Shown here one piece after another: positions 21,486 through 61,121 of a DNA stretch of 63,837 nt. The position numbers were made by a program, and so were the translations under genes. The DNA lies in NCBI GenBank assembly GCA_900319375.1, contig ONOI01000002.1, forward strand, positions 1 through 63,837, in the 5' to 3' direction. The stretch's first letter is position 1, and every line of letters starts with the position of its first letter. The stretch comes from an uncultured Bacteroidales bacterium (GTDB taxonomy: Bacteria > Bacteroidota > Bacteroidia > Bacteroidales > UBA932). The notes under the pieces are model-generated. The model was given only the letters and a program-made list of their open reading frames with translations. It ran no database searches and was not told the origin of the DNA.

Positions 21486-21848
21486 CTAGTCCTCCATTTC
21501 TACGTCCATGCCCAGTTCCAGGCGGGCTTCGTCCGACAGAAGGCTCTGGTCCCACGCCGGCTCAAATACCAGATTGATCGTACATGAGTTGATTCCAGGG
21601 GTCTGTTCTACGGAATGCTTGACCTCCGCCATCACCTCGTCTGCCATAGGGCAGTTGGGCGCAGTGAAGGTCATCGTTATAGAGACGTCGTGGTTCTGGT
21701 CTATATGGAGTTCATAGATAAGTCCCAGGTCGTAGATATTTACAGGAATCTCCGGGTCGTAGACCTGCTTGAGGGCAAGAACTACTGCGTCGTAGAGCGG
21801 AGTCAATTCCTTTACCGCCTCCGGGGTAAGAACTTTACTGTCCTGCAT
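21486..21848 (-). CDS. DUF59/MIP18-family Fe-S assembly protein (SufT-like)
   Basis: 120 residues. The family signature DPEIPVNIYDLGLIY is near 32-46 and TFTAPNCPMAD near 66-76, whose Cys is the conserved one. Such proteins help mature Fe-S proteins. Its 14-bp overlap with sufE and closeness to sufS support that role; sufBCD are not in this window. Confidence 0.88.
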   Translation of the reverse strand: MQDSKVLTPEAVKELTPLYDAVVLALKQVYDPEIPVNIYDLGLIYELHIDQNHDVSITMTFTAPNCPMADEVMAEVKHSVEQTPGINSCTINLVFEPAWDQSLLSDEARLELGMDVEMED

Positions 21849-22251
21849 ATTCGCTTGCTGTCTTCTTAATTGTAGCTATCATCGATGAAAGGCCATTTGC
21901 CCTGGTAGGAGAAAGGTTTTCGCTGAGACCTATCTCACTAACGAAGGCGAAATCATCCTCCGCAATTTCCTTTGCCGTACGGCCCGAATAAACGCTGATC
22001 AGAAGGGATATGATGCCCTTGGTTATAATCGCGTCGCTGTCTGCGGTAAACCAGAGTTTTCCGTCTCTCGGCTCGCAATCCAACCAAACCCTTGACTGGC
22101 AGCCGCTTATCAATCTGTCCTCAGTCTTTTTCTCCTCCGGAAATGCCTCCAGATTCTTCCCAAGGCCGATTATATACTCGTATTTATCCAGCCATTCGTC
22201 GAACATCGCGAAATCATCGACCACAGCTTGTTTTGCTTCTTGTAATGTCAT
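21835..22251 (-). CDS. sufE: SufE-like sulfur acceptor
   Basis: 138 residues from the ATG at 22251 (MTLQEAKQAVVDDF). A GTG at 22272 is possible but lies inside the repeat at 22269-22392 and adds non-family residues. The sulfur-accepting Cys is in LISGCQSRVWL near residue 46. It takes persulfide sulfur from SufS, encoded just upstream. The conserved-core repeat separates the two genes, so the repeat is inside the operon. Confidence 0.92.
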   Translation of the reverse strand: MTLQEAKQAVVDDFAMFDEWLDKYEYIIGLGKNLEAFPEEKKTEDRLISGCQSRVWLDCEPRDGKLWFTADSDAIITKGIISLLISVYSGRTAKEIAEDDFAFVSEIGLSENLSPTRANGLSSMIATIKKTASEYAGQ

Positions 22252-22268
22252 TTTTACTATTTGATTAA

Positions 22269-22392
22269 ACACAGGGACTATGCCCTCAAGGGACCCTGGC
22301 CACCCGCGGCCGATAGCGGGGGGACCACTAGCGCGAAGCGCGTTTGGTGGGATGAGCGAAGCGAAGGTCGCTTGGGGGCATAGTCCCTGTGT
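22269..22392 (+). repeat. Conserved-core hairpin-armed repeat, copy A
   Basis: 124 bp between sufS and sufE. The arms 22269-22290 and 22370-22392 form a 22-bp stem (outer 17 bp perfect, one T-G pair further in). The 79-bp core at 22291-22369 matches copy B (58394-58472, opposite strand) at 78 of 79 bases. Inside the core GGACC closes with GGTC, CCCGC pairs with GCGGG, and CCAC...GTGG encloses a GCGC-GAA-GCGC hairpin. The arms share little sequence with those of copy B. The core reads on the plus strand, opposite to the flanking genes. The element begins 6 bp past the sufS stop. Confidence 0.9.
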
Positions 22393-22398
22393 TCTCCA

Positions 22399-23622
22399 TT
22401 ATTGCAATAATTCAATAGCTTTATTCAGTGATTTTATAAAAGTCTTTGCCTCTTCAAGCGTATTATACGGCGCGAAAGAGGCCCTGAGCATTCCGGTTAC
22501 GCCGAAGCGCTTCATGAGGGGCTGCGCACACATGTGGCCGGAGCGCACCGCTATTCCCATTTTATCCAGAACGAGAGCAAGATCCTCGTGATGGACGCCA
22601 TTTACGCTGAATGAAAAGAGCGGCACTTTTTCCTCAAGATTTTCCGTTGTTCCACGTAGAACAATTCGCTCATCAGAGGACAAGGCGTCGTATACGTATT
22701 TCTTTATCTCAGCTATTTCCAGGGCCGTTTCAGAGGCCCAAATGTCTTCCAGTAAATTGATTGCCGGGACGAAAGTAGGGACAGAATTAATGTTGGGTGT
22801 TCCTGCCTCAAACTTGTATGGAACATCGGCGTAGGTCGATCCTTCCCAGCTTACATCGCCTATCATTTCCCCACCTCCCATATACGGAGGCATCTGCTCG
22901 AGGATAGACTTCTTGGCGTACAGGACTCCGATTCCGGTTGCCGCATACATCTTATGCCCGGAGAAAGCATAGAAGTCGCAGTCCAGATCCTTAACGGAAA
23001 TCTTCCGGTGGACTACTCCCTGGGCGCCGTCAACGAGGACTGGAACGCCTTGTGAATGGGCTATGGAGATTATCTCCGAAAGGGGGTTGACAAGCCCCAG
23101 TACATTTGAAACCTGAGCTGCGCAGACGAGCTTTGTTTTCGCGTTGATAAGCCCTTTCAGGGTATCTACGCGCAGTTTTCCGGAATCTTCTACCGGGAGA
23201 ACTACTATTTTGAAACCCTTGCGCTCGGATAGGAGCTGCCAGGGAATGATGTCTGAATGATGCTCGGACTCAGCTATGATTATTTCGTCACCGGGGCCTA
23301 TGAATTTACCGCCGAACGATGAAGCGACAAGGTTTATGGAGGCGGTTGTTCCTGAAGTAAAGACTATCTCCTCGGAAGAAGTCGCGCCGATAAACTGCGC
23401 TACGCGCTCGCGTGCGCTCTCGTACGCGCGCGTAGCCTCTGCCGCGAGCGCATACACGCTTCTGTGGGTATTTCCGTTGTGGTGGGCGGCGGAGTCTGCC
23501 TGAGCATCTATGACCCCAAGACAACGCTGCGAGGTTGCTGCATTATCCAGATAAATAAGAGGCTTTCCATAAACCTCCCTATCAAGCCCGGGGAATTGTT
23601 TTCTTAACTCTTTTACCGTCAT
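22399..23622 (-). CDS. sufS: Cysteine desulfurase, SufS type
   Basis: PLP enzyme taking sulfur from cysteine for Fe-S clusters. 407 residues, group II. The PLP lysine is in AFSGHKMYAATGIGVLY (about 226); the catalytic Cys is in VRSGHMCAQPLM near 365. It overlaps ruvA by 4 bp and precedes sufE across repeat copy A. The SufS-SufE pair is the usual two-component sulfur donor. Confidence 0.95.
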   Translation of the reverse strand: MTVKELRKQFPGLDREVYGKPLIYLDNAATSQRCLGVIDAQADSAAHHNGNTHRSVYALAAEATRAYESARERVAQFIGATSSEEIVFTSGTTASINLVASSFGGKFIGPGDEIIIAESEHHSDIIPWQLLSERKGFKIVVLPVEDSGKLRVDTLKGLINAKTKLVCAAQVSNVLGLVNPLSEIISIAHSQGVPVLVDGAQGVVHRKISVKDLDCDFYAFSGHKMYAATGIGVLYAKKSILEQMPPYMGGGEMIGDVSWEGSTYADVPYKFEAGTPNINSVPTFVPAINLLEDIWASETALEIAEIKKYVYDALSSDERIVLRGTTENLEEKVPLFSFSVNGVHHEDLALVLDKMGIAVRSGHMCAQPLMKRFGVTGMLRASFAPYNTLEEAKTFIKSLNKAIELLQ

Positions 23623-56202: not shown

Positions 56203-58287
56203 CTACTCGTCTTCCTTCTCGGATGCGGCGTAGTCGGCGATGAGCTTGTTCTGGATGTCTCCCGGTACCGGCTGGTAGTCGGCGAACTCCATCGTGAAGC
56301 TTGCGGAACCTGAGGTCAGCGAGCTCAGAACTGTAGAGTAACGGTAGAGCTCTGCGAGCGGAACCCTGGCCCTGAGGATGCTGAATCCTTCATCAGAACC
56401 GAGGTCGCCGAGGATACCGCGACGGTTCTGGAGGTCGGACATGACTGCGCCCTGATACTCTCCGGGGGTAGTAACCTCAACGTTGTAGATAGGCTCGAGG
56501 ATCTTCGGACCGGCGATACGGAAGGCCTCCTTGAAGGCGTTGCGGCCGGCGATGATGAAGGCGATTTCCTTGGAGTCTACCGGGTGCATCTTACCGTCGT
56601 AGACATAGACGCGGATATCGCGTGCGTATGAACCGGTAAGAGGTCCTTCTACCATACGGTCCTTGATACCCTTAAGGATAGCGGGCATGAAGCCGAGATC
56701 GATAGCGCCACCGACGACGCAGTTGTAGAACTCAAGCTTTCCGCCCCACTCGAGGTCGATGATTTCCTGGCTCTTGATGTTGAGCTGAGTGTCTTTTCCG
56801 TCGATAGGGAACTTAGTCCTGAGTTCTCCTTCTGCAGGGCAGACGAGGAGGTGGACCTCACCGAACTGACCGGCGCCGCCGGACTGCTTCTTATGACGAT
56901 ACTGGGCGGTAGCGACCTTTGTGATAGTCTCGCGGTAAGGTACCTTCGGAGCGAAGAGCTCAATCTCGAGACCGAACTCGTTATTGACTCTCCACTTGAC
57001 GGCGTTGATGTGCTGCTCGCCGTTTCCGCTGAGGATGGTCTGACGGAGTTCCTTGCTGTATTCTACGATGACGGTAGGATCCTGAGAGGAGATCTTCTTC
57101 AGGGCCTCGCCGAGCTTCTGCTCGTCCTGCTGGACCTTGGCCTTGATGGCGCAACGGTATTTAGGAGCGGGGTACTGGATCTTCTCGAAGTTCAGACCTG
57201 AACCGATAGCGGAGAGGGTAGTGTTGCTCTTTCCGTTCTTGAGCTTGACTGCGCAACCGAAGTCGCCGGCCTTGAGAGCCTGGACGGGCTCCTTCTTTGT
57301 TCCAGCAACAGCGTAGATAGCGCTGAGACGCTCCTTGTCACCTGTCTCGGGGTTCTCGAGGTCGAGACCCGCGGTGACGGTGCCGGACATTACCTTGAAG
57401 TAAGAAACTTCTCCGAGGTGATGCTCGACATTGTTCTTGTAGATGAAGAGACCAGCTGCGGCTTTCTCGTCTGCCTCAGGGGCGACGGCTGCGCCGATCG
57501 TGAACTCGAGCAGACGCTTGACTCCGATGTCCTTCTTTCCGGAAACGCAGAGGACAGGATAAACCTCGCGGTTCTTGATACCGATTGCGAGACCGTTGCG
57601 GATTTCTTCGTCTGAAAGGGTTCCTTCCTCGAAGAACTTCTCCATAAGGGCGTCGTCGAACTCGGCTACCTTCTCGATGAGGGCCATACGGGCCTCTTCT
57701 GCCTTGTCTGCGTACTCTGCAGGGATCTCGAGGGTGTCGTTGTACTTCATTGTAAGTACGTCTACGACTCCGTCAAAACCAACACCGGTGTTGGTAGGGA
57801 ACTGGATAGCGAGATACTTGCTGCCGAGGGCCTCCTTAAGGGCGTGCTGAGCGAGATCCCAGTCTGCCTTCTCACCGTCGAGGTGATTGACTGCCACTAC
57901 GAGGGGGAGCTTGAACTGGTCTGCATAGCGAAGGGCGTTGCGGGTACCGACCTCGATGCCCTGCTGGGCGTTGACTACGAGGATACCGTTCTCGCAGACG
58001 CGGAAGCCTGCGTATGCGCCGCCGATGAAATCATCGGAACCGGGGGCGTCGAGAATGTTGATTTTCTTGCCCTGGAACTCGGCGTACACGGGAGTCGCAT
58101 AGATCGACCTCTGGTTGAGCTTCTCAAGTTCGTCGAAATCGGAGACGGTGTTCTTGTCTTCAATGGTACCGCGCCTGTCGATAACTTTTCCCTCAAAAAG
58201 CATAGTTTCTGCAAGCGTAGTCTTACCGGACTTCGTTGCGCCCAGAAGGACCACGTTGCGGATGTCTTGTGCTGAATACTCTTTCAT
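56203..58287 (-). CDS. fusA2: EF-G paralogue (EF-G2-like) with altered GTPase motifs
   Basis: 694 residues, full EF-G length with all five domains (domain IV near KKQSGGAGQFGEVHLLV). The G1 loop is GATKSGKT near 16-23 instead of GHIDAGKT, and switch II is DAPGSDDF at 80-87 instead of DTPGHVDF, so the catalytic His is Ser84. G4 is NHLDG in place of NKMD. These changes are those reported for the Bacteroides EF-G2 that supports translocation without GTP hydrolysis during carbon starvation. It has its own promoter and terminator. The main fusA is expected elsewhere with the ribosomal-protein genes. Confidence 0.88.
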   Translation of the reverse strand: MKEYSAQDIRNVVLLGATKSGKTTLAETMLFEGKVIDRRGTIEDKNTVSDFDELEKLNQRSIYATPVYAEFQGKKINILDAPGSDDFIGGAYAGFRVCENGILVVNAQQGIEVGTRNALRYADQFKLPLVVAVNHLDGEKADWDLAQHALKEALGSKYLAIQFPTNTGVGFDGVVDVLTMKYNDTLEIPAEYADKAEEARMALIEKVAEFDDALMEKFFEEGTLSDEEIRNGLAIGIKNREVYPVLCVSGKKDIGVKRLLEFTIGAAVAPEADEKAAAGLFIYKNNVEHHLGEVSYFKVMSGTVTAGLDLENPETGDKERLSAIYAVAGTKKEPVQALKAGDFGCAVKLKNGKSNTTLSAIGSGLNFEKIQYPAPKYRCAIKAKVQQDEQKLGEALKKISSQDPTVIVEYSKELRQTILSGNGEQHINAVKWRVNNEFGLEIELFAPKVPYRETITKVATAQYRHKKQSGGAGQFGEVHLLVCPAEGELRTKFPIDGKDTQLNIKSQEIIDLEWGGKLEFYNCVVGGAIDLGFMPAILKGIKDRMVEGPLTGSYARDIRVYVYDGKMHPVDSKEIAFIIAGRNAFKEAFRIAGPKILEPIYNVEVTTPGEYQGAVMSDLQNRRGILGDLGSDEGFSILRARVPLAELYRYSTVLSSLTSGSASFTMEFADYQPVPGDIQNKLIADYAASEKEDE

Positions 58288-58370: not shown

Positions 58371-58494
58371 AAAATAGGGCTATCCACTCTTCGGACCTTC
58401 GCTTCGCTCATCCCACCAGACGCGCTTCGCGCTAGTGGTCCCCCCGCTATCGGCCGCGGGTGGCCAGGGTCCTCAGAGTGGATAACCCTATTTT
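58371..58494 (-). repeat. Conserved-core hairpin-armed repeat, copy B
   Basis: 124 bp, the same length as copy A, between mutS and the EF-G2-like gene. On the minus strand the core (58394-58472) matches copy A at 78 of 79 bases, the one difference being C for T. The arms AAAATAGGGTTATCCACTCT and AGAGTGGATAGCCCTATTTT form a 20-bp stem with one T-G pair. They differ from the copy A arms at about half the positions. The core here reads in the same direction as the flanking genes, opposite to copy A. It begins 14 bp past the mutS stop. Confidence 0.9.
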
Positions 58495-58508: not shown

Positions 58509-61121
58509 TTATACCCCAAGCTCCTGTTTCATCTTCCGAAGGAGATCAAAAGCCTGTAGCGGAGTCATATTGTCCAGGTCGGCGGCTTCGAGCTTTTCGC
58601 GTATTCCGGAGAGGGCCGGATCGTCGAGCTGGAAGAACGAGAGCTGGAGGCTTCCGTCCGCCTCGACCTTGCCCTGTTTCGAAAGGGCCTCCGCGCGCTT
58701 TTCGCGCCGTTCGAGCTCCACGAGCGTCCGTTCGGCCGATTCCACCACCTCCTTGGGCATACCGGCGAGGCGGGCGACGTGGATACCGAAGCTATGGGCC
58801 ACTCCGCCCGGTTCGAGCTTGCGAAGGAAGATGATGTCCTTGCCCTGCTCCTTGACCGCGATATGGTAGTTCTTCACGCGCGGGTAGAGCGCCTCGAGGT
58901 CGTTGAGTTCGTGGTAGTGTGTCGCGAACAGCGTTTTCGCGCCCTTGCCGTATTTGTGGACATACTCGACCAGGGCGCGGGCTATCGACATGCCGTCGTA
59001 GGTTGAGGTTCCACGGCCGATCTCGTCCAGCAAGACGAGCGAACGCTGGCTGAGGTTGTGCATGATCATGGCCGTTTCGAGCATCTCGACCATGAAGGTA
59101 GACTCGCCGCGGGAGATGTTGTCCGTGGCCCCGACGCGGGTGAAGATTTTGTCGAAATAGCCGAAGCGCGCGGCGTCCGCCGGAACGAACGAGCCCGCCT
59201 GAGCCATCAGGATGATGAGGGCGGTCTGGCGCAGCAGCGCGCTCTTTCCGGCCATGTTCGGACCGGTCAGGATCATGATCTGGTTGGTAGCGCTGTCCAT
59301 CCGGATGTCGTTCGGGACGAACTGCTCGCCCGCCGGCATCAGCGTCTCGATTACCGGGTGACGGCCGGCCTTGATGTCGATGATGTTCGATTTGTCTATC
59401 TCTGGACGGCAGTAGTTGTGGTCAAGGGCCTGCTGGGCATAGCCCTGGAGGACGTCGAGCTGGGCGACTATCTTGCAGTTTGTCTGGATGTCGCGGATGC
59501 TGCCCTGGATGTGGGCGATAAGCTCGCCGTAGATGCGGCTTTCGATTTCGTAGATGGTGGCCTCTGCGCCCAGGATCTTTTCTTCGTAGTCCTTGAGTTC
59601 TTGGGTTATGTAGCGCTCCGCGTTAACGAGGGTCTGCTTGCGAACCCACTCGGGCGGGACTATGTCTTTATAGGCGTTGCGGACTTCGAGATAATAGCCG
59701 AAGACGTTGTTGTAGCCTATCTTGAGCGACGGAATTCCGGTACGCTCGCTCTCGCGCTGCTGGAGGTCGAGCAGGTACTGCTTTCCGCCGGTAGAGATGT
59801 TTCTGAGCTCGTCAAGGTCTTTGTCCACTCCTTCGGCGATGACCGGGCCTTTGCCGATTTGGGCGGCCGGGCTTTCGCTCAGCGTCTCGCCGATGCGGGC
59901 GACTACCTTTTCGCAGTTCTTCATCTTCGAGGCGAGCTTTTCGAGCGCCTCGACTCCGGATCCGGCGCAAAGGGCCTGGATCGGGCCCATCTGGGCAAGG
60001 CTGCGGCCGAGCTGCATCATCTCGCGGGGGAGGATCTTTCCGGTCGCTGCGCGGGCGATAATGCGCTCAAGGTCGCCGACGTTGCTTATCTCGCCCTGAA
60101 TCTCTTCGAGCGCGCCGTCGTTGTCATAGAAGAACTGGACGCAGTCATAGCGGGAGTTGAGCTCCGCAAGGTCGAGGCTGGGCAGGGCGAGCCACTGCCT
60201 AAGGAGGCGGGCGCCCATCGGCGAGCAGCAGCGGTCGATAGTTTCGACCAGGCTGACGCCGTCTTTGCCCGACGCGCTGGCGAAGATCTCGAGGTTGCGG
60301 ACGGTGAACTTGTCCATCCACACGAACTTCGCCTCATCGATTCGGGATATGCTGCAGATATTCTTAAGGCCTACATGCTGGGTCTGTTCGAGGTAGAAGA
60401 TCAGGGCTCCTGCCGAGCAGATGCTCAGCGGGAAGTTGTCTATCGCAAAGCCTTTAAGGCTCTTTACTCCCAGCTGTTGAGTAAGCTTTTCGTATGCTGC
60501 CTCATAGACGAAGGCCCATTCGTCTACACAGGTGATGTAATAGTCTCCATAGCGCTCCTTTACGGCGTTCCTTACCGAGCGCTCGACTACCAGCTCCTTC
60601 GGCTGGAACGAAGACAGAAGAGTTCCGATATAATCGAGGCTTCCCTGCGCCACCTGAAACGTTCCGGTTGAGGCGTCCAGAAACGCCGCTCCGCATTCGT
60701 TGTCCTCGAAAAACAGACCGCAGAGGTAGTTGTGCTCTTTCTGGTCTAGCATACCCTCTCCGAAGGCCACTCCGGGCGTAAGTATTTCTGTTACACCGCG
60801 TTTAACAAGTTTGTTTTTCGCCAGGGCGGGGTCCTCCAACTGGTCGCAGATAGCTACTTTGTAGCCTGCGCGGATTAGTTTCTGGAGGTAAGTCTCGATA
60901 GCATGGTGGGGGAAGCCGGCCATCTCGGTCGGTCCCTTCTCCCCATTGGCCCTTTTCGTAAGGACAAGCCCCAGGACTTTGCTTACCAGGACGGCGTCGT
61001 CTGAGTAACACTCATAAAAGTCGCCGCACCTGTATAGCAATACTGCTTCCGGGTGCTGCGCCTTAACGGCGAAGTAGTGCCGGAGCATCGGGGTATCTTC
61101 TGTTTTCTTGGTTTTAGCCAT
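58509..61121 (-). CDS. mutS: DNA mismatch repair protein MutS
   Basis: 870 residues, normal. N-terminal mismatch-binding domain with RCGDFYE near 32 (usual GDFYE, holding the Phe-x-Glu); Walker A GPNMAGKSA near 617; DEIGRGTSTYDG near 702; the helix-turn-helix tail ends MTPLQAFDLLRKMKQEL. Carries out mismatch recognition with MutL. Upstream is mrp in the same direction. Confidence 0.97.
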   Translation of the reverse strand: MAKTKKTEDTPMLRHYFAVKAQHPEAVLLYRCGDFYECYSDDAVLVSKVLGLVLTKRANGEKGPTEMAGFPHHAIETYLQKLIRAGYKVAICDQLEDPALAKNKLVKRGVTEILTPGVAFGEGMLDQKEHNYLCGLFFEDNECGAAFLDASTGTFQVAQGSLDYIGTLLSSFQPKELVVERSVRNAVKERYGDYYITCVDEWAFVYEAAYEKLTQQLGVKSLKGFAIDNFPLSICSAGALIFYLEQTQHVGLKNICSISRIDEAKFVWMDKFTVRNLEIFASASGKDGVSLVETIDRCCSPMGARLLRQWLALPSLDLAELNSRYDCVQFFYDNDGALEEIQGEISNVGDLERIIARAATGKILPREMMQLGRSLAQMGPIQALCAGSGVEALEKLASKMKNCEKVVARIGETLSESPAAQIGKGPVIAEGVDKDLDELRNISTGGKQYLLDLQQRESERTGIPSLKIGYNNVFGYYLEVRNAYKDIVPPEWVRKQTLVNAERYITQELKDYEEKILGAEATIYEIESRIYGELIAHIQGSIRDIQTNCKIVAQLDVLQGYAQQALDHNYCRPEIDKSNIIDIKAGRHPVIETLMPAGEQFVPNDIRMDSATNQIMILTGPNMAGKSALLRQTALIILMAQAGSFVPADAARFGYFDKIFTRVGATDNISRGESTFMVEMLETAMIMHNLSQRSLVLLDEIGRGTSTYDGMSIARALVEYVHKYGKGAKTLFATHYHELNDLEALYPRVKNYHIAVKEQGKDIIFLRKLEPGGVAHSFGIHVARLAGMPKEVVESAERTLVELERREKRAEALSKQGKVEADGSLQLSFFQLDDPALSGIREKLEAADLDNMTPLQAFDLLRKMKQELGV

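Follow-up and report, generated by a model that had tools for sequence, protein, structure and literature searches.

Invertons, in which a segment lying between inverted repeats is inverted, occur in Bacteroidales. Palindromic elements that settle within genes have been described in Rickettsia, which belongs to a phylum other than that of the host considered here. In the available excerpts of the respective reports, Rickettsia palindromic elements (RPEs) are about 150 bp long, occur in many copies and lie in frame within unrelated genes (PMC10969869), and REPINs are non-autonomous, with two inverted arms that form a hairpin in single-stranded DNA or mRNA and that are REP sequences common to a family (PMC3116915). 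CGTC-tagged REPs are found in Bacteroidetes among five phyla, within coding regions and with no dedicated transposase; the excerpted source describes simple palindromes of 20–40 bp and no pseudoknot core (PMC3733652). Long coding palindromes exist in the mitochondria of Nematomorpha, according to the accessible part of a further report (PMC6649704). As to how paired arms may stay paired, work on yeast coding DNA, available in excerpt, reports that template switching between inverted repeats homogenises the arms and inverts the spacer (PMC8604942), and the accessible portion of a second study reports that template switching can maintain stems through multibase compensatory change (PMC8794818).

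Here we describe a palindromic element of small size (about 124 bp) and probable mobility, which we file with the small palindromic (RPE- or REP-like) elements. It consists of a core of about 80 bp between two arms of about 22–27 bp, and within a Bacteroidales genus it spreads and persists both between genes and in frame within genes. Our main reading, to which we assign a probability of roughly 0.6, is that the arms are copied by template switching and that the core is inverted thereby. Two copies lie 36 kb apart and on opposite strands of the window, the 63,837-nt stretch of DNA from an uncultured Bacteroidales bacterium that was analysed:

22269–22392, + strand: copy 1, whole, 124 bp
22269–22290, + strand: left arm of copy 1, 22 nt, copy-specific; pairs with 22370–22392 (from the fold and the arm comparison)
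22291–22369, + strand: conserved core of copy 1, 79 bp, with a GGACC/GGTC closure, a pseudoknot and two hairpins; identical to copy 2 at 78 of 79 bases; 84.6 bits with covariance model R1
22370–22392, + strand: right arm of copy 1, 23 nt (from the fold and the arm comparison)
58371–58494, − strand: copy 2, whole, 124 bp
58371–58393, − strand: right arm of copy 2, 23 nt (from the fold and the arm comparison)
58394–58472, − strand: core of copy 2, 79 bp (from R1 and the core comparison)
58473–58494, − strand: left arm of copy 2, 22 nt (from the fold and the arm comparison)
21835–22251, − strand: sufE-like gene downstream of copy 1; best NCBIfam match SufE at 104 bits, below the equivalog cut-off of 160
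22399–23622, − strand: sufS, upstream of copy 1 (TIGR01979, above cut-off)
56203–58287, − strand: EF-G-like gene downstream of copy 2 (NF009381, above cut-off)
58509–61121, − strand: mutS, upstream of copy 2 (TIGR01070 and NF003810, above cut-off)

Copy 1 fills the gap between sufS and sufE. The first-pass annotation had recognised two 124-bp copies with a near-identical core, arms differing at about half of their positions and pairing of each arm with its own partner, and our coordinates, strands and comparisons bear this out: the left arms agree at 11 of 22 positions and the right arms at 11 of 23, and the two copies fold at −81.6 and −76.3 kcal/mol (z −7.8 and −8.5), with none of 200 shuffles folding as well.

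Further copies exist, as expected of the folded, dispersed element proposed at the outset. The window's own genome holds six copies by blastn and nine covariance-model matches at E ≤ 0.001, three of them weak; the copy at one site, C37 (L131), is split by an inserted hairpin. By blastn, 10 of 61 genomes, counting the window's own, contain a match, and these 10 belong to one genus. A covariance model of the core (R1), built on 20 copies from blastn or a pattern search, matched 50 of these 61 same-genus genomes (own included), with 638 matches in total and up to 44 per genome, a multiplicity that recalls the RPEs, likewise short palindromes. Order-wide, R1 matched 3 of 149 genomes, the two beyond the window's own lying in another genus of the family (six hits) and in another family (three hits); one further same-genus genome of this set gave no R1 match. 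One carrier has a name, Bacteroidales bacterium Tb.RUG.374 (L035), which from its RUG label is presumably a rumen genome. The impression that this is not a described family agrees with Rfam 15, in which copy 1 had no covariance-model match up to E 10 and another copy (L146) had three chance-level matches only, far below gathering score. Copy 1 was without a match in phage and plasmid collections, and a search of the open-access literature found nothing on this family, nor on copy-specific arms with an inverting core. A hammerhead-like ribozyme, considered for a resemblance in the GATGAG...GAA string, was dropped because Rfam gave no match at copy 1 up to E 10. Compared with RPEs by description only, and from excerpts of that description, this element differs in its copy-specific arms and inverting core. 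We know of no RPE report of either feature.

Within the core, four substructures can be placed on copy 1:

22298–22311, + strand: P2, first stem of an H-type pseudoknot, GGCC (22298–22301) with GGCC (22308–22311) (from covariation)
22303–22320, + strand: P3, second pseudoknot stem, crossing P2, CCCGC (22303–22307) with GCGGG (22316–22320) (from covariation)
22325–22350, + strand: P4, hairpin CCACTAGCGCG-AAG-CGCGTTTGGTGG (from the fold and family covariation)
22356–22362, + strand: P5, mini-hairpin GC-GAA-GC, conserved 3' part (by eye; absent from the minimum-energy fold)

The core is a conserved fold made of the P2/P3 pseudoknot and hairpin P4. Over 91 distinct cores, 95.6% of the cells of P2, P3 and P4 are standard pairs (93.9% in P2, 98.9% in P3 and 94.1% in P4, helices 1 to 3), and pairing drops to 35–56% when the partners are slid. 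Two-sided changes occupy 167 cells, against a shuffle mean of 39.4 and 6–22 in the slid controls; they fall at five of six pairs in helix 1 and in 31 and 35 cells at two pairs of helix 2. Because P2 and P3 cross, the core contains an H-type pseudoknot, and because the model to which the 91 cores were fitted contained P2 and P4 without P3, the evidence for P3 is more independent. Consistent with this, a MAFFT alignment of 20 copies has 92.1% of cells paired and two-sided changes at eight pairs. The core substructures noted earlier are real (the GGACC/GGTC closure, CCCGC/GCGGG and GCGC-GAA-GCGC inside CCAC/GTGG), and CCCGC/GCGGG proves to be the second pseudoknot stem; read by eye, P5 is a GAA-capped stem of variable length, longer in other copies. 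Larger variants of the core also occur. In G011 and G004 (L182, L221, L222) a further long hairpin replaces or lengthens its conserved 3' part, and L131:2501-2623 and L195:1501-1622, from two genomes, have a common hairpin insert of about 43 bp at different sites within the core, perhaps a nested small element.

The arms pair copy by copy. Among 74 copies the arm-pairing score averages 18.0, and the lowest value, 4, belongs to L182, in which a nested hairpin disturbs the core end; 300 control draws of left and right arms from different copies give a mean of 4.2 and a maximum of 13. Arms of different copies therefore do not pair, unlike the shared REP arms of REPINs: here the arms are unrelated between most sites, and the core is the conserved part. 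Nor does the element resemble the CGTC-tagged REPs as their excerpted source describes them. The arm score was passed by 125 of 134 distinct copies, with a median arm of 27 aligned positions, and their arm pairs comprise 3089 Watson-Crick pairs, 113 G.U, 38 A.C, 74 other mismatches and 35 gaps. The excess of G.U over A.C on the element strand (113:38, p 8e-10) is roughly threefold and is not built in, since the scoring weights G.U and A.C alike; the G.U-rich strand is fixed relative to the core. When the copies are divided by spanning frame (stop-free stretches, only some of which are confirmed as genes), G.U:A.C is 48:20 for copies that no long frame spans, 26:13 for those with a sense spanning frame (p 0.05) and 39:5 for those whose longest spanning frame is antisense to the element. 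Were the fold of the host mRNA under selection, the antisense group should show the reverse bias, so selection does not act on the host mRNA strand. The overall excess nonetheless indicates that some selection acts on one element strand, and it suggests recognition of one strand of the fold as well. We infer that this strand is recognised as single-stranded DNA; alternatively, strand-specific deamination could produce the bias without recognition.

We then compared orthologous loci, matched by blastn with both flanks of 138 copy records, of which three were duplicates. Occupied sites, 27 in number and drawn from three groups of related genomes, yielded 33 comparisons. Between the genomes compared, the core has turned round within its arms in 15 of the 33 comparisons, at 14 of the 27 sites, like the segment of an inverton. 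Flipped cores lie between arms that are 98% identical in L319/L329 (flanks 96.2%), 100% identical in L275/L311 and 95% identical in L295/L306, the last being the ygiQ site by flank match to L159 and L185. Arms were compared without gaps at a limit of 65% identity, because an earlier, lenient alignment had inflated identities. They reach this limit in 21 comparisons, whose arm pairs are unchanged in 429 cases, changed on one side in 61 and on both sides in 46, otherwise changed in 7 and gapped in 5. The two-sided changes divide into 19 transition-type and 27 transversion-type; since the flanks show 1260 transitions and 1149 transversions, these changes are indistinct from background (p 0.14) and are not dominated by a G.U route. 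Their clustering is weak, with 9 adjacent cases where 5.8 would be expected (p 0.09). Among the one-sided changes, 43 of 61 are transitions, a larger share than in the flanks (p 0.005). In the other 12 comparisons the arms fall below the limit although the flanks are 69–97% identical, reaching 95–97% in some cases (sufSE, C78, mutS); here arms may have been replaced wholesale, or the element may have been re-inserted at old sites. At the L128/L190 site the arms match (94%) and P2 differs (GGCC/GGCC versus AAGC/GCTT), which suggests homogenisation of cores between sites.

Sites with and without the element were also compared. Two genomes have an occupied sufS-sufE gap, of 147 bp in the genome of the window and of 155 bp in Tb.RUG.374, and their cores point in opposite directions; in 29 other species this gap ranges from −4 to 75 bp, four of these shorter gaps holding short hairpins of another kind. 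One short hairpin, ATGCCCGATCAGGTCGGGCATGACG, lies in the gap of G003, G064 and G061 (L075, L078, L086), with a similar one of other sequence in G062 (L076); the ATGACG end of the sufS-sufE hairpin resembles a CGTC-tagged REP. In ygiQ, 11 same-genus species have a loop of 21–24 nt at the element site, and six species (G082, G011, G004, G019, G005, G008) carry the element in frame in this loop, with model matches at E 3.5e-10 to 3.8e-21; a model search of ygiQ in 14 other species returned no element match. In each of the 23 loci measured, among them the six with the element, the length of the ygiQ gap is divisible by 3. The loop of G015 and G023 holds another repeat, and that of G010 a 93-nt insert without the element. 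This second dispersed repeat, CCCCCTGCACCCCC...GGGGACGGGGG..., is in frame in both genomes (L219, L220), and L031 contains a similar string. Site C37 is filled in the window genome, and both relatives carry a different stretch of 158 bp.

At the mutS and C78 sites, the sister genome G006 has a short hairpin only, which keeps the outer ends of the arms. Because these outer ends are shared, deletion scars are at least as likely as hairpins that preceded insertion. Beyond the elements, long hairpins with loops of 3–12 nt hardly occur, the best score over 275 kb being 17, and the ygiQ and sufSE sites without the element showed no such long stem. Insertion into the loops of native terminators was at first favoured from the G006 mutS hairpin. 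Three points then lowered its standing: the scarcity of long hairpins away from elements, the position of copies within genes and between neighbouring genes of one strand, and the outer arm ends retained by the G006 hairpins. Inverted target duplication found no support at ygiQ or sufSE, and no donor-to-target transposition was caught in this analysis.

We favour template switching because it fits the core inversion and the two-sided, transversion-type changes together, which RNA selection or a recombinase alone does not. During replication, the two arms would act as an intrastrand inverted repeat; a polymerase switching template between them would copy one arm onto the other, so that any sequence stays matched, and the same switch would invert the spacer, which is the core. 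Recombination would homogenise core copies between sites, and the hairpin of the core strand, probably as single-stranded DNA, would be recognised by a mobility enzyme, which would keep the G.U/A.C bias. The combination of arm homogenisation and spacer inversion is like that in the yeast study, which in its excerpt concerns short repeats scattered in genes (PMC8604942), whereas here a dispersed element is flipped in 15 of 33 comparisons. The first-pass annotation had offered two causes for matched arms, selection or production as a pair at insertion. Some one-strand selection is indicated, as noted above, and beyond these two a third cause is favoured, namely that the two arms go on being rewritten together once inserted, as argued by related arms in 21 of 33 comparisons, two-sided changes and core flips. 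Such copying would not be immediate, since one-sided changes outnumber two-sided ones. Several observations count against template switching: a long switch should leave clusters, and the clustering of two-sided changes is weak; slow copying does not explain poor arms in 12 of 33 comparisons with flanks of up to 95–97% identity; and template switching alone predicts no strand bias.

That bias is among the points in favour of selection on a folded RNA, whether an element-encoded ncRNA or an mRNA hairpin, which alone would match the arms through one-by-one compensation. The transition-rich one-sided changes and the covarying core helices suit this explanation as well, but a G.U route should make transitions dominant among two-sided changes, where they account for 19 of 46; the wobble bias persists at 39:5 with an antisense spanning frame, which speaks against mRNA; and the inversion of the core is unexplained. 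We therefore regard RNA selection alone as unlikely. Arms made fresh as a pair at each insertion, by inverted target duplication or by landing in a terminator hairpin, would account for unrelated arms on cores that are about 98–100% identical within one genome, and for the short hairpins alone at two sites of sister G006. However, long hairpins are nearly absent outside elements, the empty ygiQ and sufSE sites show no such stem, the G006 hairpins are at least as readily deletion scars, and the relatedness of orthologous arms in 21 of 33 comparisons shows that matched changes also arise after insertion, which leaves fresh arms slightly less probable than RNA selection. Least probable, in our judgement, is a site-specific recombinase that flips the core at its GACC/GGTC ends, as in the invertons known in Bacteroidales, with the arms a separate matter: about half of the orthologous comparisons are flipped and the core ends are largely conserved, but the conserved core-end repeat spans merely 4–5 bp or so, and neither the two-sided arm changes nor the persistence of long matched arms is explained. 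A broader reading, one that we hold only tentatively, is that this is a mobile element inheriting its core as sequence and its arms as self-complementarity, with a rewritable, site-specific stem that would be copied in a single-strand life cycle and would reshuffle a peptide of host proteins. The flip-flop of hairpin-ended viral genomes is a parallel for such arm-to-arm copying.

The leading candidate for the mover is a RAYT-like Y1 (HUH) transposase, the link being correlative and unproven. PF01797 genes are present in 44 of 50 element-bearing genomes and in 2 of 11 element-free genomes (p 1.3e-5, kinship ignored), so that element-bearing genomes mostly have Y1/RAYT-like genes, a correlative resemblance to REPIN/RAYT systems; six element-bearing genomes are without PF01797. 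In an earlier, hand-picked genome set, RAYT-like genes accompanied the element in 12 of 12 genomes and occurred in 1 of 8 others. Three PF01797 proteins match the NCBIfam REP-associated tyrosine transposase weakly, at 30–35 bits against a cut-off of 80. Among 20 Y1 loci, none showed a RAYT-like gene bordered by the element; L360 gave two weak element matches (E 0.00025) and L350 a chance-level one (E 0.32). Among the loci listed, many RAYT-like genes have on either side long hairpins that are particular to the gene and unlike the element. Because of these other hairpins and the few element matches beside them, the element is not filed as a REP or REPIN, and RAYT was set aside as its owner, given the correlative link and Y1 loci almost free of the element. 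Several divergent RAYT-like genes occur per genome (L345–L364).

The family offers dozens of natural replicates per genome in which palindrome pairing is kept and sequence is not. It can thereby separate mutation-driven pairing, by template switching, from selected pairing, a long-standing question on the evolution of RNA stems. Because part of the arm covariation here appears better explained by a DNA copying process, these data suggest that covariation by itself is not necessarily proof of a functional RNA.

Many copies lie within genes, in frame, as do RPEs. Half of the testable copies (65 of 130) fall within a frame that runs without a stop for 250 codons or more, at least 50 of them to either side of the copy; these counts, together with Pfam matches, supersede a figure of 35 of 74 from a crude gene finder. 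Such a frame contained a Pfam domain at 18 of 19 loci scanned, the exception, L162, having none in its spanning frame, and Pfam matches flank or cross the element in at least 10 loci (L139, L142, L143, L150, L156, L159, L177, L180, L283, L284). Domains among the 18 include PP-loop (in a gene we call TilS-like), RsmF-type, SpoU-type methylase, FAD synthetase/flavokinase (RibF-like), DNA polymerase III gamma/tau (DnaX-like) and YgiQ, for which the TIGR03904 match spans residues 13–616. Because the reading frame is kept, the element is probably translated in place. Self-removal from RNA is unlikely, as the ygiQ insertions stay in frame. Flips inside genes such as ygiQ would alter a stretch of the host protein in one step with the frame kept. 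In G027, one PrmC-like open frame holds two copies in the same orientation (L150:1478-1559 and 1769-1851).
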